Assembly (NCBI GenBank): GCA_003167155.1
Contig: PMTY01000041.1
Span: forward strand, 1 to 36,278
Length of the DNA: 36,278 nt
Direction: 5' to 3'
DNA from: Candidatus Cybelea tumulisoli
Lineage (GTDB): Bacteria > Vulcanimicrobiota > Vulcanimicrobiia > Vulcanimicrobiales > Vulcanimicrobiaceae
A program made the position numbers and the translations under genes. Numbering within the stretch: position 1 is the first letter of the stretch; each line of letters begins with the position of its first letter. The notes beneath the pieces are model-generated. The model worked only from the letters and a program-made list of their open reading frames with translations, searched no databases and had not been told where the DNA came from. This document shows positions 751-27,169 of the stretch, one piece after another.

Positions 751-1527
751 ATGACCGCGAACGCCGCGTACCGGCACGTGCGCTTCAATGCTGTCGGCGT
801 TCTCGGTTGCGTGATTGCGGCCGCGTGGGCGGTCTGCGCGTGGGCGGAGGTCAGCGGCAACGCCGCGCAACTTCACCATCACGCGCTCTACGAAAGCGGG
901 CGGCCGTATTGGTTCGCGGCGCTCGTCGTGGTTGCCGCATGGCAGTTCATGACCGCTGCGATGATGCTGCCCTCTTCGCTCGGATTCATTCGGCTTTATG
1001 CGACGGCCGCCGCCCGCGCGCCGGACTTCCCGCTCGCGCTGATCTTGTTCTTGGGCGGTTACTTCGCAGTTTGGACGGGGTTTGCGCTGGCCGCATTTAC
1101 CGGTGATATGCAGCTCCATCGAGCCGTCGATGCGTGGCCCTGGCTGGCGGCGCACGCGGCGCTGATACCGGCGGCGACGCTCGGTCTCGCCGCCATCTAT
1201 CAGTTCACCCCGCTCAAAGATGCCTGCCTAAAAGCGTGCCGCCATCCAGGCATCTATCTCATGCGTCACTATCGGCGCGGCGCACTCAACGGGTTGCGAG
1301 TAGGCTTCGGTCACGCGCTTTACTGCGTTGGCTGCTGCTGGGCGCTGATGCTCGTGATGTTTGCGGCGGGAGTCGCGCATTTAGCGTGGATGGGCGTGCT
1401 CGCGGCGATTATGTTTGTCGAAAAGGCGACGCCGTTGGGAAACCGAATCGTGGCGCCGGTCGGCGTGGTCTTCGCTGCACTTGCCGTTATCGCACTCTTG
1501 GCACCCGGCGCCATCGGGGGCTTCTGA
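751..1527 (+). CDS. DUF2182 multi-pass membrane protein
   Basis: The protein has 258 residues with about six to seven hydrophobic helices. It shows the family landmarks of DUF2182 (predicted metal-binding integral membrane proteins): WQFMTAAMMLPS at about residues 64-75, YQFTPLKDACLKACRHP at 150-166 and a GLRVGFGHALYCVGCCWALM segment at 181-200 with paired cysteines. It starts four bases after the DUF1326 stop and is most likely co-translated with it. The family has no proven function; the cysteine and histidine content in the membrane segments fits metal handling, but that is inference. It ends at TGA 1525-1527, just before a GAGGAGG that serves the next gene. Confidence 0.85.
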   Translation: MTANAAYRHVRFNAVGVLGCVIAAAWAVCAWAEVSGNAAQLHHHALYESGRPYWFAALVVVAAWQFMTAAMMLPSSLGFIRLYATAAARAPDFPLALILFLGGYFAVWTGFALAAFTGDMQLHRAVDAWPWLAAHAALIPAATLGLAAIYQFTPLKDACLKACRHPGIYLMRHYRRGALNGLRVGFGHALYCVGCCWALMLVMFAAGVAHLAWMGVLAAIMFVEKATPLGNRIVAPVGVVFAALAVIALLAPGAIGGF

Positions 1528-14271: not shown

Positions 14272-14327
14272 ATTTGCTCCTCAAATTGCGCCACGCGGGG
14301 AGGACGCGCCTGCAGGCGCGGGAGTGC

Positions 14328-14552
14328 ATGGCAGAGCTTGTGAATGTAAGCGCCATGCAGCCTTCAGAGCACACCCACCAACACACCCACGCCGACGGAA
14401 CCCAACACGCGCACCCGCACGGCCACCCCGACCCCGAGCACGATCACGCGCACGAACCTCACGAACACGAGCACGTGCATGCCGATGGGACGAAACACTC
14501 GCATTCGCACGGCCATCCGGGAAGCGAAGACGCGCACGACCATACGCACTGA
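14328..14552 (+). CDS. His-rich metal-binding-like small protein with internal duplication
   Basis: The protein has 74 residues from ATG 14328, preceded by GGAG; ATG 14355 is an alternative that would start right at the His-rich part. About 22 of the residues are histidine, arranged as HxH repeats with Asp, Glu, Gly and Pro. The sequence contains two similar blocks, HADGTQHAHPHGHP and HADGTKHSHSHGHP, followed by acidic His stretches, so it arose by internal duplication. Such peptides typically bind Ni, Zn, Co or Cu for storage or delivery; no signal peptide is visible, so it is probably cytoplasmic. It stands alone between the hydrolase and the HerA-like gene. The opposite strand has a long frame that is only its shadow. 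Confidence 0.7.
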   Translation: MAELVNVSAMQPSEHTHQHTHADGTQHAHPHGHPDPEHDHAHEPHEHEHVHADGTKHSHSHGHPGSEDAHDHTH

Positions 14553-17629: not shown

Positions 17630-19201
17630 TTATAACACGGTGTAGACGTCCGAGGCCATCTCGCCTAGCGTTTGACCGGCGTAGTGAGCGGCGTCTCGGT
17701 TGGAATCGGCGCTTCCTTTGCCCGCCATTCGGTTGATGTAGAACGCGAAGGCAATGCGGCGGCCATGGCTGGTCGTGACGTAGCCGGCGAGCCCTTTTGT
17801 GACGAGCTCGTCGTCGCCGAGCAGATTCGCCGAGCCCCAAGTGCCCGTCTTCGCGTGAACGTGACCTGCGGCCGCAACGCCGTTTTGAACGTTGAAGAGC
17901 GTGCCGTCCACGCCCATGACCGGCAAACCGCGCTCCAACGAGGAGAACCACGCTTGCTGCGAAGCCCACGCCAAGTAACTCACCATAAAGCGCGGTGTGA
18001 AGAAGGCGAAGGTACCTAGGCCGTCCTGTTGCGCCGCCCCTTTGAGATCGAGCCCCGCGGCCGAAAGAAGCGCGTATTCGCGGGCGAATGCGGCTTTTAG
18101 AAGATCTTTTTTTGCATGCGCGACGTAGATCGCCCACAAGTACGGCATCAACGCCGCATGCAAGTTATCACTGACTTTGAGCGTGACGTAGACGTCTTCG
18201 GAGAGCGGCGGCGATTGGTGACGGGCTACCAGATTCGCCGGAACGTAAAACGGCGCGGAGGCATCGTGGCTGAAGGTAGCTGCACTGGAAGGCATTTGCA
18301 CCGTCACGCCCGCGTCCCGCAGTGCAACGGTGAATGCCGCTTGCGCGAAGCGCTGGGGCTCGGGCACTCGGTACGCAAATAAGATCGGCCTGCCGGCAGG
18401 CATCTCACCAGTAATCGTCACAACGTGCGATCCGTCGGAGTTGGTTTTGTCGCCGGAGAGATCGATCGTGGGTTCGGATTTGGGCGCTCCGGTCGTCGCG
18501 CCGTTGACGAACCTAACGTAGGGCGTTTGCGGAGAGACGGCAATTGAAACGGGATCGCCGGCCTTCGACCCGGGCGTTACCATCACGTCGACAAGGTTGT
18601 CGTTCACGACGATCGGTGAAACGATCGCGCCCGTTCCGCCCTCGGGCCCTTGATCGGGAAAGATTGACGCGTCGACCGCAACCATACCGTCGATTTGCCT
18701 GATCCCGGCGCGCGCGACTTGCGTCGCGAGGTCGCGCAAAACCGCCAGCGGATCCCCCGGAACGGCCTTCGTGTCGTAGTTGCCGGCATAGGAATGATCT
18801 TCGTTTTCGAAGGCGAGCGTGCCGTCGGGGCGTATTCGCTGAGAAAGATTCGGGTCGCCGCCCGCGACCAGCACGAGGTCGCCGTGCAGCACGCCGCGCG
18901 AGTCGATCGGCCCGGTACGATAGACCGGCGTGGTCCAGCGAAAGTTCGGGCCGAGCAATGCCAGGCTCGTCCCAGTCGTCAGCAGCTTCGTAGTCGAGGC
19001 CGCCTCCATCAAAACGCCGGCATTTCGAGCGTAGAGCGGGCGCTTCGCGTCGAGATCGTAGACCTCGGCGGCCACGAGCGCGTGCGCGAATTGCGGCCGT
19101 GCGACGATACGATTGAGGGCAGCCGCGATCGACGAAGGATGCGCCGGCGCGGCCTGCGAGAGTAAGGCCGTCGCGAAGGTTAGGAGCAGCGTGAGATTCA
19201 T
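17630..19201 (-). CDS. dacB: D-alanyl-D-alanine carboxypeptidase/endopeptidase, PBP4 (DacB) family
   Basis: This 523-residue protein starts at ATG 19201 and has a signal peptide (MNLTLLLTFATALLSQAAPA). A long upstream open frame is antisense noise over the next gene. Penicillin-binding motifs are complete: STTK (Ser69, Lys72), SDN in KVSDNLHAAL, and KTG in HAKTGTWGSANLLG near the C-terminus. The long insertion between the first two motifs is typical of class C PBP4. It trims or cleaves peptidoglycan cross-links in the periplasm. Its ATG shares a base with the TAA of the upstream MCO-ZIP gene (TAATG), so expression of the two is coupled. Confidence 0.93.
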   Translation of the reverse strand: MNLTLLLTFATALLSQAAPAHPSSIAAALNRIVARPQFAHALVAAEVYDLDAKRPLYARNAGVLMEAASTTKLLTTGTSLALLGPNFRWTTPVYRTGPIDSRGVLHGDLVLVAGGDPNLSQRIRPDGTLAFENEDHSYAGNYDTKAVPGDPLAVLRDLATQVARAGIRQIDGMVAVDASIFPDQGPEGGTGAIVSPIVVNDNLVDVMVTPGSKAGDPVSIAVSPQTPYVRFVNGATTGAPKSEPTIDLSGDKTNSDGSHVVTITGEMPAGRPILFAYRVPEPQRFAQAAFTVALRDAGVTVQMPSSAATFSHDASAPFYVPANLVARHQSPPLSEDVYVTLKVSDNLHAALMPYLWAIYVAHAKKDLLKAAFAREYALLSAAGLDLKGAAQQDGLGTFAFFTPRFMVSYLAWASQQAWFSSLERGLPVMGVDGTLFNVQNGVAAAGHVHAKTGTWGSANLLGDDELVTKGLAGYVTTSHGRRIAFAFYINRMAGKGSADSNRDAAHYAGQTLGEMASDVYTVL

Positions 19202-21075
19202 TAGCCTCCGTTCATGTCGAGAAAGAGTTCGGTCGCAAGGGCGAGGATAAAGCCCGCGCACATCGTCGCCGTTACGGAGACGGTCAAACCGGTGCGGCGC
19301 AGCACGCTCCACAGCTCGCCGATGACGAAGACGAGCGCGCCGATCGCGATGGCTAGAAAGAGCACGGACAGCGTCGGCGAGTAGAAGCTGTAACCGATAA
19401 TGGTTCCGAGGAAGGTGGGCCCGCCCGCGATCAAGCCCGCTAAACCGATTTGCGCCCACGACGGAACGACTCGCCCGACCAGCGGTGCCGCGACTCCGAA
19501 GCCTTCCGTCGCGTTGTGCAGGCCGAAGCCGACGATTAGCGCCAACGCGACCGCCGTCGCTCCCGATGCCGCCGACGCGCCGATGGCCAAGCCTTCACCG
19601 AAGTTGTGAGCGCCGATTCCGATGGCGATGATCGCCGCGAGGACGATTGGATTCTCCGCATGCGCCGCGGCTTGTCGCGTGAAATGGGTAGCCGCGCTGC
19701 CCAAGCCGACCAAGCCAATCGCCAGGCCAACGACAAAGACCGCCATAAGGGCTGCGGGGAACGGCCCGGCGCCGGCGTGCCACGCGTTGAGGCCCGAAGA
19801 GATCGGCGCGATGGCGTTCTGCGCGATTTCGACGACGAGGTAGAGCAGAATCCCGATCGCGAGTGCGTTGAGGAGCGCGATGGTCTGCGCGGAAAGGCGT
19901 CGCGCGCGGGCGATCGGCAGCCCGAGGAAAATCGTGAATCCAGCGATGGCGCCGAGCAGCACGGTCCACCAAAAGCTCAGGGCATGGCCGGCGGCGCCGC
20001 CGACTGGTTTCATCGCGCGGTACATTGAGAGCAACGTGTTGGGCGTACCGGCATAATGAATCGCGGTGATCAGACCCGCGGGCATCCCGTTTGCGTCCTC
20101 GATATGATCCATGACGTGGCAATGAATGAGCCAGGTGCCTGGCCTCGCGTCGGCCCGAACGACGACGTCGACGCGTTGCCCCGGGGCCACCAGCACCGTA
20201 TCTTCGACGTCACGATAGTCGAGCGGCTCGGCGTCGCGCGCGATGATTTGCTGGTAATGCCCGTGCGTGTGCATGGTGTGGAACTCTTCGCCGGAGATAT
20301 TGATCCAGCGGATTCTAAAGCGCTCGCCGGCGCGAACCTCGAGTGCGCGCGTCGCTGGATACTCTTTACCGTTAAGCGTGAAGTGATTTTCGGCAGCGCT
20401 TTGAATTTGCCAGGACGAGATCACCTCGAGGAAATCGTGAGCCAAGCCGCGTTCGACCGGAAGCGGTTGCGACGGCTCGACGATAATCGCGCCGTACAAT
20501 CCGGAATCCAGCATCGCTTCGTCGTCGTGGCTGTGATAGATGAACGTGCCGGGTTGGTCGGCAACGAAGCGGTAGACAAAGTGACCCCCCTGCGGAACGA
20601 GCGGCTGCGAGATGCCGCCGACCCCGTCCATCGATACCGGAATGTCGTGCACTCCGTGCAGATGGATTGAGTCGGGCATCGCGCCGGCGTTCGTATAGTC
20701 GATAACCAGCGTGTCACCCTGATTTACGACGAGCGCCGGCCCGGGAACGACGCCGTTATAGGTGTTCGCCATAACGGTCAAGCCCGGCGCAAGGGTCCAC
20801 GGCGCGGAGCGCTCGACGATGTGAAAGAGCCTTGTGCGTCTCTGCTTTAGCGGGATGGCCTGATAGGCTCCATCCGATCGCCGGAACGTGGCCGACTCGC
20901 CCGGCGCCGGGGTCGCTTGCGGAATCGGCCCCGCGATCGGCTGCAAGCCCAGGGAGGTCGAGTTTGGCGAGACCGGTTCGTCGGCGTCGGCGAAAACCGC
21001 GACCGGCATCGCTACCGATATCAGCAGAAGGAATGCCGCGGCCCCCACGACCAGCCGAGTAAACACGATTTTCAT
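19201..21075 (-). CDS. multicopper oxidase fused to a ZIP-family metal permease
   Basis: One uninterrupted 624-residue frame. Residues 1-30 are a signal/anchor. Residues about 65-345 form a two-domain-sized multicopper oxidase with all four copper motifs: HLHG (138-141), HSH (181-183), HTHGH (269-273) and HCHVMDH followed by GM (318-324, 330-331), the last giving type 1 and trinuclear ligands. Residues about 365-624 are eight hydrophobic helices with the two ZIP transporter signatures HNFGEG (His490, Glu494) and HNATEG (His520, Glu524), the metal path of TM4 and TM5. The oxidase faces outside the membrane and could oxidise Fe(II), Mn(II) or Cu(I) beside the permease, as Fet3-Ftr1 does in yeast (analogy). 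Substrate unknown. It is coupled to dacB. Confidence 0.92.
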   Translation of the reverse strand: MKIVFTRLVVGAAAFLLLISVAMPVAVFADADEPVSPNSTSLGLQPIAGPIPQATPAPGESATFRRSDGAYQAIPLKQRRTRLFHIVERSAPWTLAPGLTVMANTYNGVVPGPALVVNQGDTLVIDYTNAGAMPDSIHLHGVHDIPVSMDGVGGISQPLVPQGGHFVYRFVADQPGTFIYHSHDDEAMLDSGLYGAIIVEPSQPLPVERGLAHDFLEVISSWQIQSAAENHFTLNGKEYPATRALEVRAGERFRIRWINISGEEFHTMHTHGHYQQIIARDAEPLDYRDVEDTVLVAPGQRVDVVVRADARPGTWLIHCHVMDHIEDANGMPAGLITAIHYAGTPNTLLSMYRAMKPVGGAAGHALSFWWTVLLGAIAGFTIFLGLPIARARRLSAQTIALLNALAIGILLYLVVEIAQNAIAPISSGLNAWHAGAGPFPAALMAVFVVGLAIGLVGLGSAATHFTRQAAAHAENPIVLAAIIAIGIGAHNFGEGLAIGASAASGATAVALALIVGFGLHNATEGFGVAAPLVGRVVPSWAQIGLAGLIAGGPTFLGTIIGYSFYSPTLSVLFLAIAIGALVFVIGELWSVLRRTGLTVSVTATMCAGFILALATELFLDMNGG

Positions 21076-21083
21076 TGTTAGGA

Positions 21084-21107
21084 GCGCCTAAGATTGCCGC
21101 TAGGCGC
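21084..21107 (-). promoter_or_regulatory. 7-bp inverted repeat in the leader of the MCO-ZIP gene
   Basis: GCGCCTA (21084-21090) and TAGGCGC (21101-21107) are perfect arms around a 10-base centre, only 8 bp upstream of the start codon of the MCO-ZIP gene. It can be an operator for a metal regulator or an mRNA hairpin that limits ribosome access; no clear Shine-Dalgarno is otherwise visible for this gene. Confidence 0.4.
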
Positions 21108-21223: not shown

Positions 21224-21793
21224 ATGGAAGAACTACTACTCGCAGGCTTTGGGTTTGGCGGCGGCTTGATCATGGCAGCCGTACAGAAAAAATGGCCCGA
21301 GCGTTTCCCGAACTACTTTTTAGCAATCGGCATCGGTCTTTGCGTTGCAAGTCCCCTCGCGGCGGGAGTCTTCTGGGTTCTTCAGCGCCCCGAAGCCACC
21401 ACGGCGGTAGCGCCTCCGAGCGAAGCGCCCGTTCCGCCCACTAGCATTACATTCACGCAGGAGCCAGCACCACAACGCACTCCTGGCTATCCGTATGTTG
21501 TTAAGGTCGTTTTACAGACTGACCATAAGATCGACCCGTTCAATGTTTTCTTGGCGCTTACGCCCGGAGCGAAACCGGACAACAACGTGGCTGCGTTTTG
21601 GGGCGTTGCCAATGGAGCGACGGAGTCTCTGTATCCGAGATCATATCTCGCTTCAAATTCAAGCAAAACACAGTATGGGGTCCTATTGCGGTGCAACTGT
21701 ATTCCGGCCTTTGACCAGGAAACGCCCTATCAGGTTTTCTTGCAATCCAAGTCCCCGTTGACGGTACAGTCCGTCAGGGAAGGGCAGCCCTAA
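21224..21793 (+). CDS. membrane-anchored protein of unknown family (accessory)
   Basis: The 189-residue protein starts at ATG 21224. There are two N-terminal hydrophobic helices (ELLLAGFGFGGGLIMAAV and FLAIGIGLCVASPLAAGVFWVL), a Pro/Ala-rich linker (about 60-85), and a predicted beta-rich soluble C-terminal domain (YVVKVVLQTDHKIDPFNVFL, YGVLLRCNCIPAF). No family was recognised. Base composition is visibly less G+C rich than the core genes. Its last codon and TAA (21791-21793) are formed at the tip of the transposon copy that follows on the opposite strand, so the C-terminus may be truncated by that insertion. A comparable arrangement is seen at 24834. Confidence 0.6.
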   Translation: MEELLLAGFGFGGGLIMAAVQKKWPERFPNYFLAIGIGLCVASPLAAGVFWVLQRPEATTAVAPPSEAPVPPTSITFTQEPAPQRTPGYPYVVKVVLQTDHKIDPFNVFLALTPGAKPDNNVAAFWGVANGATESLYPRSYLASNSSKTQYGVLLRCNCIPAFDQETPYQVFLQSKSPLTVQSVREGQP

Positions 21794-23037
21794 GCCACCG
21801 ATTCGATGTTCCAAAACTTAGCGTCAATACCCAACTCGAAGAACGCGGAGACTAAGCAGCAGAGATTATGACAAAGAATTTTGGCAAGGACCTCGTTGAC
21901 CTGAGCGGTGTGCGTCTTAGCGCGAACGCGGGCTCCGAACTTGGCCTTGATCATGTGGAACGTCGTTTCAACGTTAGACCGCTGATGGTAGTGCGCGAGG
22001 AACTCCTCGCGATTGTGGACGAAAAACTCGTACATCTTACGCCACAACTCCCGACTCCCTTGGGAGACCCGGCTGTTGCTCCGCTTGCTCCAATACCCGC
22101 CGCCGGGGTTGTGGTGGCTCTTGAAGGGTATCAGCGGAAACGCGCCAGCGCAGGCGATGGCGTCGAGGTTGGAGTGGCTGATGTAGCCTTTGTCAGCGGC
22201 GACCGTCTTAACGTCGAACCGCTTGGTGGTCGTCTTGAGGAGCGCGGGTAGGTGCGGGCTATCGGCGGAACGCCAGCCCGTGACCTCGACGCCCGTCGCG
22301 ACGTTCGTCTTGGTTCCGATGAAGATATGCGCCTTGACCCATTGGGACTGCATCTTTTGTTTGCCGTACTTGTGGTCAAACCACCGTTCGTAAACGCAGG
22401 TCGAGAAGCCGGACGAATCGGCGGCAAAATCGGTTTCGACGGTACGGAGAGGGCGGGCGCTTTCCTCGATCAGCGCCTTGAGAATCGGCGTGACCTCTGG
22501 GTTTTCCAGCACGTTAAGGATGCTGTTAAAGTGCGGAGCCTTGTCGATATATCCGCCCTCGACGTACTGCTCCATATCGACCATCGAGCGGCGACCGCTG
22601 GCCCCGCCGTAAACCTTCATAACGGCGCAAAAGAGTTTGTCAGAGAGCGGAAGGCTCGGACGCCCGTTCTTGTGGACCGGGTTGTCGATAGCGGAGCAGA
22701 GAGCGTGGAGCAGGTTCGCGACCCGTTCCTTCTCGACGGTCTGCGCGGCGTTGTACGCGGCCCAATTCTGCCGGTACGTTACGCGCACCGTCTGCTCGAC
22801 CGTCGTCTCGCCGTTGGGCTTCACCGAATGGCGAACCGTGTATTCGATCGCGTAGAGATGCTTGCACTTGAGGCCGCGCTCCTCAAAGTCGGGACAAGTG
22901 CAGTTAGGCCGCTGCGTTCCCGGCTCGACCACATAGGTTCCGCTGCCGGATTGCGAAGGCACAATCCACAACGCACCCTTCTGCTTGATGCCTTTGGACT
23001 TGGCGAGAGCGATACCGCGCTGTTCCCTGGTTTCCAT
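21790..23037 (-). CDS. transposase, DDE type with N-terminal SWIM zinc finger
   Basis: The protein has 415 residues. The N-terminus holds a SWIM zinc finger, C46-x-C48-x9-C58-x-H60 (CTCPDFEERGLKCKH), preceded by a basic stretch. The catalytic part has Asp207 (TDFAADSSGF), Asp282 (VAADKGY) and Glu357 (HQRSNVETTFHMIKAKFG), the usual DDE spacing of DDE_Tnp_1-type enzymes. The frame is intact, so this copy may be active. A truncated near-identical C-terminus lies at 24832-25029 and a more diverged, frameshifted relative at 26275-27169. The start ATG 23037 is only six bases from a good -10 box, which implies a leaderless mRNA. Confidence 0.9.
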   Translation of the reverse strand: METREQRGIALAKSKGIKQKGALWIVPSQSGSGTYVVEPGTQRPNCTCPDFEERGLKCKHLYAIEYTVRHSVKPNGETTVEQTVRVTYRQNWAAYNAAQTVEKERVANLLHALCSAIDNPVHKNGRPSLPLSDKLFCAVMKVYGGASGRRSMVDMEQYVEGGYIDKAPHFNSILNVLENPEVTPILKALIEESARPLRTVETDFAADSSGFSTCVYERWFDHKYGKQKMQSQWVKAHIFIGTKTNVATGVEVTGWRSADSPHLPALLKTTTKRFDVKTVAADKGYISHSNLDAIACAGAFPLIPFKSHHNPGGGYWSKRSNSRVSQGSRELWRKMYEFFVHNREEFLAHYHQRSNVETTFHMIKAKFGARVRAKTHTAQVNEVLAKILCHNLCCLVSAFFELGIDAKFWNIESVA

Positions 23038-25212: not shown

Positions 25213-26187
25213 TTATCCTCTTTTGCCATACCAGGAAATGACGACGTAACCGTTACCCGCGGGAGCGCCACCTTGCTGATCGGTGACGTGGGTCGCGCTC
25301 TTCTCGACGTAGGATGACCCCCCGCCGCCCCCGCCACCGTAGCCATCGAAGCCGGCCGCTCCACCACCGCCACCACCGTAGTAGCCACCGCCTCCACCGC
25401 CCCCACCCAGGATGTAGGGCTGCTCATTGCAGGAACTATTCCCACCTGTGCCGCCGACGCCGAGCACTCCAGAGGCACCGGTCGCCCCCGGGCCGCAACT
25501 GCCGGTACCCGCGGCACCGCCAAGCCCGCCGGCACCGCCAGCACTCTGCGAACCGCCGCTTCCTCCTCCGCCGCCTCCCTGTCCTGAGCCTGCCTGCCCA
25601 GCTGCACCAGTAGTACCGCCGCCAGCACCTCCAGACGCGCCGCCAGTCTGGCTCCAGTCTGATTCTCCGCCGCCGCCTCCAGCGACGAGGACGCGGTCGC
25701 TCAACGCAGCGCCTCGCTCGCGGACGTCTGAAGCCCCACCCCCGCCAGCGCCGAAGTTGTCGCACGAACTGCATCCGTAACTTCCATAACCTCCCGGGCC
25801 GCCGCCATTGAAGCCGCCTTTGTCGTTCTGGATGTTATAGAGCGTCGGGGTGCCCCCGACGTAGACTTCAAGCAACTCGCCAGGCTTGACGGGGATTGTC
25901 GCCTCCACGTAACTGCCTCTCCCGCCGATCCCCGGGGAGCCATATTGTTGCCAGTAGCCGCCTGTCGCCCCGTCTGCCTTGATCGTAATTGTCTTCTGGT
26001 CCCTAGGAACCTTAAAATACTCTACCTGCCCAGCGTAGGCGAAGATTCTCTGGCGCTCTTTTAGCTGCGGCGCGACGGTTGTTGCGCCGGGTGCACCGGT
26101 TGGTGGCTGCGATCCGCCGCATCCCGGCAGCATGGCGATCCCCGCGCAGAAACCTAAAGCGTGACGGCCCAAACGAAAATCAATCAT
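25213..26187 (-). CDS. Gly-rich lipoprotein
   Basis: This 324-residue protein starts at ATG 26187 after AGGAGCAGG. The lipoprotein signal is CAGIAMLPGCGGSQPPTGAP, with the lipid-bearing Cys in LPGC. After a linker the mature part begins FAYAGQVEYFKVPRDQKTIT and then follows the known bacterial Gly-rich protein pattern: GGFNGGGPGGYGSYG, GGGASDVRERGA, RVLVAGGGGGESDW, long GGAGG/GGGGG runs, and SSYVEKSATHV near the end. It is a surface or periplasmic structural or adhesive type protein; the function is not known. It is a paralogue of the protein ending at base 111. It lies between repeat locus C and a transposase relic, and shares a conserved upstream block with the lipoprotein at 28802. Confidence 0.88.
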   Translation of the reverse strand: MIDFRLGRHALGFCAGIAMLPGCGGSQPPTGAPGATTVAPQLKERQRIFAYAGQVEYFKVPRDQKTITIKADGATGGYWQQYGSPGIGGRGSYVEATIPVKPGELLEVYVGGTPTLYNIQNDKGGFNGGGPGGYGSYGCSSCDNFGAGGGGASDVRERGAALSDRVLVAGGGGGESDWSQTGGASGGAGGGTTGAAGQAGSGQGGGGGGSGGSQSAGGAGGLGGAAGTGSCGPGATGASGVLGVGGTGGNSSCNEQPYILGGGGGGGGYYGGGGGGAAGFDGYGGGGGGGSSYVEKSATHVTDQQGGAPAGNGYVVISWYGKRG

Positions 26188-26213
26188 CTGCCTGCTCCTA
26201 TCGGCCGCGCAAG

Positions 26214-26242
26214 GGTTCGACAGGGGCTAGGCGTTCCCCAGG
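26214..26242 (-). promoter_or_regulatory. conserved upstream block of the lipoprotein genes (copy 1)
   Basis: A 29-bp block 26 bp upstream of the Gly-rich lipoprotein start matches the block at 29283-29311 upstream of the other lipoprotein at 26 of 29 positions, in the same orientation and at a similar distance. It probably contains the promoter or a leader element inherited with this lipoprotein family. Confidence 0.5.
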
Positions 26243-26274
26243 CGACTAACTCGGAGCCCAGTGACGAAGCCGGG

Positions 26275-27169
26275 CTGGATCAACCGCTCGACCGGCTTTC
26301 AACGCCACCAAAGCAGCAGCGTGGCAGACCTAGAATCCCGCGAGGTGAAGCGATCTTCTCGGCCGTCCTGAAAGTCTATGGAACCGCTTCCGGCAGGCGC
26401 ACGGCGACCAACCTTCGAGAGCACGAGGCCAAAGGCTACCTTCGCCGAGCACCACACTACAACAGCATTTTTAAGACGCTGGAGGACCCGGCTTTAACGC
26501 CGATCCTGAAGCGTATGATTGAGGAGTCGGCTGCGCCGCTACGTGAGATTGAAACCGACTTTGCGGTTGATTCAACGGGTTTTTCAACCTCTACTTATGA
26601 GCGCTGGTTTAGCCATAAGTACGGACGCGAGGTGAAGTTTGCGCCATGGATCAAGGCCCACGTTAGGGTCGGCGTCAAGACAAACGTCGTCACGAGCATC
26701 GAGGTTACGACGATAAAAGGTGCAGATTGCCCGCAGCTCCCGCAACTGCTCGAAACGTCGCGAGAGCGATTTAATGTCAAGACGGTCGCCGCCGACAAGG
26801 CGTATATCAGCCACAAAAACCTCGACACTATCGACGCTGCTGGTGCGTTCCCGCTGATCCCGTTCAAAGAGCACCATAACCCAAAAGGCGCATGTTGGCG
26901 TGGTACGGGTGGCGGCAAAAATCCGAAGGCTAGCCGCGAATTATGGAAGCGAATGTACGACTACTACCATCAGAACAAGGAAGAGTTTTATAGCCACTAC
27001 CCTCAAGCGCTCGAACGTCGAAACGACGTTCTCGATGATCAAGGCGAAGTTCGGTAGCTACGTCCGCTCTCGGACGCTGACGGCTCAGATCAACGAGGTC
27101 CTGGCTAAGGTCCTCTGCCACAACCTGTGCTGCCTCGTTCAGGCGTCTTATGAGGGTCTAGCGGCGTAA
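26275..27169 (+). pseudogene. transposase relic, 5'-truncated and frameshifted
   Basis: It is related throughout to the intact transposase at 21790 but clearly diverged: RGRPRIPRGEAIFSAVLKVY, ETDFAVDSTGFSTSTYERWF (first Asp), VAADKAYISHKNLD (second Asp). The frame then breaks near 27003, within CTACCCTCAAG, where one extra base shifts it. The C-terminus continues in another frame with RSNVETTFSMIKAKFGSY and LAKVLCHNLCCLV, ending at TAA 27169. The first 120 or so residues, including the SWIM finger, are missing; similarity starts around 26275-26320. It is oriented opposite to the intact copy. Confidence 0.85.

Follow-up and report, generated by a model that had tools for sequence, protein, structure and literature searches.

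In the Fet3/Ftr1 system of yeast, an extracellular multicopper oxidase (MCO) lies next to a permease, and the system is induced by iron starvation; Fet3 is a three-domain oxidase. A comparable arrangement has been described in ammonia-oxidising archaea. According to the available text of a study on Nitrososphaera viennensis, MCO1 (NVIE_000600) and an adjacent zinc/iron permease gene (NVIE_000590) show a moderate rise under copper limitation, and a Fet3-like scheme for copper was proposed for this two-gene MCO-ZIP pair (PMC7785015). The present work concerns a gene of Candidatus Cybelea tumulisoli in which an oxidase and a permease are joined. It is located on contig PMTY01000041.1 (assembly GCA_003167155.1), of which positions 1 to 36,278 were analysed, and this whole stretch of 36,278 nucleotides is called the window. 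The minus strand holds, between 21075 and 19201, a frame of 624 codons with an ATG start, whose product consists of a leader, a two-domain MCO and a ZIP permease of eight helices; the plus strand at 19201-21075 contains stops. The original prediction, made from the letters of the window, had placed an unbroken MCO and ZIP frame at 19201-21075; its coordinates and its length of 624 residues are right, and the strand is minus.

We lean towards the view that the fusion is a single-chain, oxidase-coupled permease induced by iron starvation, where iron, the oxidase activity, import and coupling are what we infer from sequence. By analogy, the fusion would work like Fet3/Ftr1, sharing with it an extracellular MCO next to a permease and, judging by the operator described below, induction by iron starvation. 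It differs in that the permease is a ZIP and not FTR1, in the union of both parts in one polypeptide and in the two-domain oxidase, and it is not filed as a member of that system. The MCO1/ZIP of ammonia-oxidising archaea resembles the fusion in the linkage of oxidase and permease genes and in the Fet3-like proposal, but its genes are separate and were proposed to serve copper (PMC7785015). The original prediction knew of no characterised bacterial precedent. No report of a fused MCO-ZIP protein was found in the literature searched, most subscription journals and preprints lying outside the search, but adjacent MCO and ZIP genes with a Fet3-like copper proposal had already been published for N. 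viennensis. What would be new is that a ZIP plays the part of Ftr1, that oxidase and permease form one chain, that they were fused in two opposite orders and that an iron box is present; taken singly, both halves are members of known families.

Architecture of the fused protein

The protein and its motifs are arranged as follows. Residue conservation was counted over 69 fused homologues, some rows of which do not reach every motif.

19201..21075, minus strand: MCO-ZIP fusion gene, 624 residues (open reading frame, Pfam; one frame in 69 of the 75 genomes having the ZIP)
20989..21075, minus strand: leader, about residues 1-29 (N-terminal helix 2-22 in the model)
20041..20850, minus strand: two-domain MCO, about residues 76-345 (Pfam; best solved relative 2zwn)
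19975..20040, minus strand: linker, residues 346-367 (predicted local distance difference test, pLDDT, <50 at 359-363)
19213..19974, minus strand: ZIP permease, eight helices, residues 368-621 (structure models; charge pattern of loops)
20653..20664, minus strand: HLHG, H138 and H140 (67/67 rows reaching the motif)
20527..20535, minus strand: HSH, H181 and H183 (67/67 rows reaching the motif)
20257..20280, minus strand: HTMHTHGH, H266 (type 1), H269 and H271 (69/69 rows)
20104..20124, minus strand: HCHVMDH, H318, C319, H320, D323 and H324, type 1 site of domain 2 (conservation)
19591..19608, minus strand: HNFGEG, metal path of helix 4 (H490, N491 and E494 in 69/69)
19501..19518, minus strand: HNATEG, metal path of helix 5 (H520, N521 and E524 in 68/68 rows reaching the motif)

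Pfam detects Cu-oxidase_3 (residues 96-203) and Cu-oxidase_2 (residues 229-326) with scores far above cut-off, and both cupredoxin domains are present with the full set of trinuclear-site histidines (Pfam, alignment and model). H138 and H140 of HLHG are taken to be, by analogy, the trinuclear-site histidines of domain 1. There is no Cys between H181 and H183 and therefore no type 1 site in domain 1. In domain 2, C319, H320 and H324 are found in all 69 fused homologues, and H318 and D323 in 68. All of the predicted HLHG, HSH, HTHGH and HCHxxxH motifs are present, with ligands almost invariant over the homologues. The original inclusion of the axial Met of 'GM' among the complete ligands was overstated: M331, the candidate residue, occurs in just 46 of the 69, at a position where the alignment is loose. 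An axial Met is absent from many laccases. D150 and D323 are conserved in the fused oxidases, and these are presumably the positions where other MCOs hold acidic residues aiding O2 reduction; on this analogy the oxidase half is probably active.

The two-domain laccases 2zwn and 3g5w are 36 and 33% identical to the fusion over the oxidase, with template modelling (TM) scores of 0.79 and 0.78 by target length. Their HCH lies in domain 1, whereas that of the fusion lies in domain 2, and the permease is absent from both. Two-domain laccases are trimers with the trinuclear site built between subunits, and a dimer has been observed for BbZIP. By analogy, the fusion, which was modelled as a monomer, would hold a symmetry mismatch between a trimeric oxidase and a dimeric permease.

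The identity of the ZIP half required more than a family search. Pfam Zip (PF02535) scores 25.6 bits at residues 471-582, short of the 35.1 set as its cut-off, so that the Pfam profile originally expected was borne out for the two oxidase families and not for Zip; the NCBIfam ZupT score is 36.9 bits against a cut-off of 252. Identification from Pfam alone was dropped on account of the score, and a separate ZIP model with a fold search was used instead. The ZIP-only model, made of the last 262 residues (pLDDT 87.3; predicted TM score, pTM, 0.82), gave ten Foldseek matches at E<=0.001, all ten of them BbZIP entries, with TM by query length up to 0.66. The predicted eight helices with HNFGEG and HNATEG are recovered in the model, and the motif residues are invariant where present. 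Since fold and motifs agree despite the low Pfam score, this half is taken as a divergent ZIP branch; the modelled fold and the motifs, not the Pfam score, make it a ZIP.

BbZIP and ZupT share with the fusion the eight-helix ZIP fold, HN..EG in helix 4 and E in helix 5, and differ in the absence of an oxidase. Besides, Q207, D208 and E240 of BbZIP align with H520, N521 and T554 of the fusion. The second metal site is altered in this way (D208 to N521, E240 to T554), and the metal selectivity of the fused ZIP may therefore differ from that of BbZIP.

The full-length model (pLDDT 85.8, pTM 0.58) shows the eight C-terminal helices at residues 368-621 and leaves the relative placing of the MCO and ZIP halves uncertain. 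The N-terminal leader, a helix in the model, is probably a signal peptide. Loops 1-2, 3-4, 5-6 and 7-8 of the ZIP carry on average 2.8, 1.7, 1.0 and 2.0 Lys/Arg, as against 0.4, 0.0, 0.1 and 0.1 for loops 2-3, 4-5, 6-7 and the tail. This positive-inside pattern places both ends of the ZIP outside, and hence the oxidase outside. With both ends outside, the orders MCO-ZIP and ZIP-MCO alike put the oxidase on the outer side.

Spread of the fusion and its two-gene relatives

The ZIP half was searched in 149 genomes of the phylum, and a fused-type ZIP was found in 75. MCO and ZIP stand in one frame in 69 of these (loci paired to genomes via contig and coordinates). Among the remaining six, G030, G092, G095 and G099 cross the junction in incomplete frames, and G072 and G004 have only pieces of the ZIP, 187 and 42 residues long, that fall short of it; in none of the 75 ZIP-bearing genomes is the ZIP a gene of its own. 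The fusion is also present on contigs longer than 0.5 Mb (L010, L019, L024, L169, L173 and L180). An assembly artefact as its origin is ruled out by the same frame in 69 genomes, these long contigs included. The homologues thus keep the predicted order in one frame wherever enough of it is readable, neither an assembly error nor a loss of copper ligands has occurred, and the separate adjacent genes that exist are in other phyla.

Of the 69 fused frames, 59 were included in the full-length structure alignment, 34 in the ZIP structure alignment together with two archaeal ZIPs, and 37 in a tree of 83 ZIPs. The tree joined the 37 fused rows in a single clade (support 100/96) and placed 22 two-gene rows in a clade of their own (100/99). 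The ZIP occurs in 61 of the 103 genomes of the order, and the other 14 of the 75 belong to family f3 of the same class. Among 25 close relatives named, 23 are titled Candidatus Eremiobacterota or Eremiobacteria, and the NCBI taxonomy places Vulcanimicrobium in the phylum Vulcanimicrobiota. Vulcanimicrobium is the first cultivated member of the group, according to the available text of PMC9758169. The oxidase of V. alpinum WC8-2 (G090, L158 2832-4052) ends in what looks like one helix; its gene lies between two long frames resembling each other.

In other phyla, adjacent MCO and ZIP genes were found in Acidobacteriota, Deinococcus, cyanobacteria, Rhodococcus, Rubrobacter and a haloarchaeon. Fifteen of 396 Acidobacteriota genomes have a related ZIP, and in 15/15 an MCO frame stands directly before it on the same strand; 13 of these 15 loci were refetched with longer flanks. 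An MCO followed by a ZIP is annotated on plasmids of Deinococcus sp. QL22, Rubrobacter marinus, Chroococcidiopsis thermalis, Rhodococcus qingshengii and Halomontanus rarus. These two-gene modules resemble the fusion in the pairing itself, with the MCO directly before the ZIP on one strand. They differ in that the type 1 HCH is found only in their domain 1 (21/21 loci), as opposed to domain 2 of the fused oxidases, so that type 1 copper sits in opposite domains, and in that their ZIP, which forms the separate clade, has an extra N-terminal region. As far as the sequences tell, the MCO-ZIP pairing is older than the fusion. A gene for a Rieske [2Fe-2S] protein, a possible redox partner of the oxidase in two-gene pairs, follows the pair in Rubrobacter (L183, with a DoxX gene between), Chroococcidiopsis (L184) and Rhodococcus (L187).

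In Deinococcus sp. KNUC1210, a plasmid gene joins ZIP and MCO within a single protein in the reverse order, the ZIP ahead of the MCO (L181 4944-6755, WP_239052023.1). The HCH of this protein reads QCH, and its gene lies beside ArsR, CDF and P-type ATPase genes. This is apparently an independent fusion event; the position of the protein in the tree is uncertain, with a long branch. In Thermoplasmatota, a ZIP match was found in 26 of 292 genomes, with an MCO directly before the ZIP in three, one of which is a partial piece and another has degraded copper motifs. At L203 3153-5257 (genome G724), two successive MCO-like frames precede the ZIP, the second without most copper motifs.

Iron-type operator, regulators and genomic context

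The stretch common to the upstream regions of 14 same-genus loci is short, ends at the start codon and holds the palindrome TTAGGCnnnCCTAA. The 14-bp consensus TTAGGNNNNCCTAA has been proposed for iron-dependent IdeR/DtxR regulators in the available text of PMC8464063. Two features precede the gene in the window:

21078..21091, minus strand: predicted IdeR/DtxR-type operator TTAGGCGCTCCTAA, two bases before the ATG (alignment of loci; consensus from the available text of PMC8464063)
21100..21113, minus strand: a further palindrome, weaker and operator-like, 22 bp upstream of the operator (its GG...CCTA is shared by the 14 same-genus loci that were aligned)

Operators were searched with the looser form TTAGGNNNNCCTAA from -300 to +60 of the start at 54 loci of families f1 and f2 and at 13 of f3; the start-lacking frames L141 and L179 were excluded. 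At the f1/f2 fused genes the box is exact in 37/54 and has at most one mismatch in 52/54. Twenty dinucleotide shuffles of the upstream regions gave a mean of 0.05 exact boxes and 0.35 with at most one mismatch, and the downstream control (50 usable regions) gave none and one, respectively. In 47 of the 54, no more than 39 bases separate the box from the set start codon, and 34 of these boxes are exact; the distances are approximate, since each start was assigned by rule to the first Met close to where the alignment begins. At some loci the box falls just inside the set start, which points to a later codon as the true start.

In f3, a DtxR gene precedes the fusion gene, and a box with at most one mismatch is found at the upstream end of the DtxR gene in 13/13 loci, a fourteenth f3 locus being cut by the contig end. 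One f3 DtxR protein was scanned; it contains Pfam Fe_dep_repress, Fe_dep_repr_C and FeoA, and its best NCBIfam match is the MntR model, far under cut-off. Met10 and Cys102 mark iron sensors, and Asp/Asn and Glu mark manganese sensors, according to the available text of PMC10317159. All 14 regulators adjoining fused genes (13 in f3 and one at L177) have Met and Cys and are of iron type; among the fetched fused-gene loci, a neighbouring DtxR gene is found only in f3 and at L177. The genome of the window has an iron-type regulator elsewhere (L207), plus a manganese-type regulator beside an Nramp gene. A regulator like L207 occurs in 93 of the 103 order genomes (E<=1e-20), some matches being the manganese-type paralogue; in the best 30 loci of L207 type, Cys is present in 30 and Met in 24. 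No box with fewer than two mismatches was found within these 30 regulator loci.

Two other exact TTAGGNNNNCCTAA sites in the window genome lie 14-15 bp before possible starts, at L205 374-1486 (minus strand) and L206 1530-2198 (plus strand). The exported-looking proteins of L205 and L206 have no family match beyond chance, and one has a CxxCH motif. One of the two boxes overlaps a Shine-Dalgarno-like stretch and may therefore be a chance occurrence.

The usual importers of iron were sought in the order, with f3 outside the search. Neither FeoB (FeoB_C, PF07664) nor FTR1 (PF03239) matched in any of the 103 genomes, including 58 near-complete ones (>=90% complete, <=5% contaminated); control searches with FeoB and FTR1 matched in 7 and 4 of 14 well-known genomes. 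Therefore, neither of the usual importers of unchelated iron was detected, siderophore systems lying outside the survey. Together with the box and the f3 regulator, this gives substance to the likeness to Fet3/Ftr1 drawn in the original prediction, except that the permease half is not FTR1.

Around the fused genes of f1 and f2 no clear conserved neighbours were found, the output being largely out-of-frame overlap of the gene itself. In the window, an S13 D-Ala-D-Ala carboxypeptidase gene (17630-19201, minus strand) has an ATG that overlaps the stop of the fusion gene by one base (TAATG), and the two genes may be co-transcribed. Two DDE_Tnp_1 transposase genes lie upstream of the fusion gene, one with a SWIM finger (21790-23037, minus strand) and one that looks shortened (26161-27057, plus strand). 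A frame of 92 residues at 14274-14552 (plus strand), without a Pfam match, is about one third His across its last 61 residues (HTH, HAH and HSH repeats) and, if translated, looks like a metal-binding His-rich protein. The adjoining DUF1326 and PpoB2 (Pfam 'copper chaperone') genes at 141-746 and 751-1527 (plus strand) are possibly involved in copper handling.

Proposed mechanism and rival explanations

According to the proposed mechanism, when cytoplasmic iron falls, a repressor of IdeR/DtxR type would leave the TTAGGNNNNCCTAA box at the gene start and the protein would be made. The leader would export the oxidase, and the ZIP would be inserted with both ends outside, which would set the oxidase on the outer mouth of the permease. 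There, Fe(II) would give electrons to the type 1 copper of domain 2, from which they would pass to the trinuclear cluster and to O2, and iron would enter the ZIP at its outer face. Oxidation at the permease mouth would give affinity and selectivity, as in Fet3/Ftr1. The ZIP might take Fe(III) handed over directly, as Ftr1 does; alternatively, oxidation may select, protect or meter rather than make the transported ion. According to the available text of PMC10317159, a gene under repression has its box across the transcription start or across the -10 region. A repressor box at the start would silence the gene when iron is plentiful, and the regulation therefore favours uptake and not a detoxifier or an exporter.

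Several observations weigh against this proposal. The coupling chemistry is its weakest step: ZIPs are known for divalent ions, and we know of no ZIP that carries Fe(III). The box is absent at two of the 54 f1/f2 loci (L035 and L057), and the window genome has three boxes against two for a reversed control pattern, so that no large regulon is marked. In six of the best 30 L207-type regulators the first position is occupied by Glu instead of Met. Nor does every member of the order have the protein: among the 58 near-complete genomes, the ZIP occurs in 37 and is missing from 21, and these 21, also without a FeoB or FTR1 match, must obtain iron by some other route; the genome of the window itself contains an Nramp gene. 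Meanwhile, the cultivated V. alpinum keeps the oxidase without a ZIP match and without a box (best four mismatches), although the joint absence of ZIP and box fits one shared function of the two.

The two-gene relatives point away from iron as well. A DtxR gene adjoins the pair in 7 of the 13 refetched Acidobacteriota loci, at the plasmid loci L182 and L183 and at L201, and these regulators are of manganese type wherever both positions are readable. The box is rare at two-gene loci, exact in one of 21 (L182) and with at most one mismatch in two (adding L188), with starts set roughly. Therefore, the iron reading is not to be carried over to the two-gene modules.

These relatives lend some weight to another explanation, which we nevertheless regard as unlikely. 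Under starvation the ZIP might import a divalent metal (Mn, Zn or Fe(II)), while the tethered oxidase clears a rival reduced metal, above all Cu(I), from the mouth and so keeps that metal from blocking the permease or passing into it. MCOs of CopA/CueO type oxidise Cu(I), and D323 presumably corresponds to the position where CueO has an acidic residue. Genes for ArsR, P-type ATPases and cation transporters (CDF) are found in the vicinity of the reversed Deinococcus fusion and of the Chroococcidiopsis and Rhodococcus pairs, and the manganese-type regulators beside the Acidobacteriota pairs agree with such a role; the iron-type operator at the fused gene and the iron-type regulator in f3 do not.

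Copper acquisition, in which the oxidase would convert Cu(I) to Cu(II) and the ZIP would import Cu(II), seems improbable in spite of its precedent. The linked MCO-ZIP pair of ammonia-oxidising archaea answers to copper limitation, and the proposal made by the authors for N. viennensis, in the available text, is of exactly this kind (PMC7785015), which counts against iron. The box and the regulators at the fused gene are, however, of iron type, and copper as the carried metal was ranked behind iron after the operator and regulator results.

Slightly less probable still is efflux, with the ZIP running outward and the oxidase trapping exported Fe(II) as Fe(III), in the manner of ferroportin with hephaestin. 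An outside oxidase would pull a passive carrier outward, and the available text of PMC5797780 has an insect ZIP13 carrying iron away from the cytosol, but a repressor box at the gene start predicts silence at high iron, the wrong time for efflux. Least probable is the absence of any coupling, the ZIP being a membrane anchor or a co-expression neighbour and the halves acting separately: the V. alpinum oxidase alone on what looks like a single helix would suit this, but two opposite fusion orders, adjacency in several phyla and metal ligands conserved in both halves speak against it.

The oxidase-coupled iron permease is thus the reading that we prefer, and its one-chain form makes the coupling testable: oxidase and permease are bound to a ratio of 1:1, and oxidation can be separated from transport by mutating one residue (C319 or H490). 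A wider claim is tentative, and we hold it to be possible rather than probable, the 21 near-complete genomes that are without the protein, FeoB and FTR1 having lowered its likelihood: many members of the order, having no recognisable FeoB or FTR1, would import iron chiefly by a self-contained, single-chain ZIP ferroxidase-permease under an IdeR-type repressor, a union made at least twice, in opposite orders, from an older, widespread and overlooked two-gene counterpart of Fet3/Ftr1. The results suggest that for many Eremiobacterota where FeoB and FTR1 were not found the fusion may be one route to iron. If the proposal is true, a ZIP doing oxidase-assisted uptake in one chain would be a new tie of redox chemistry to transport, with a bearing on the choice of metal by ZIPs and on the MCO-ZIP proposal made for archaea.

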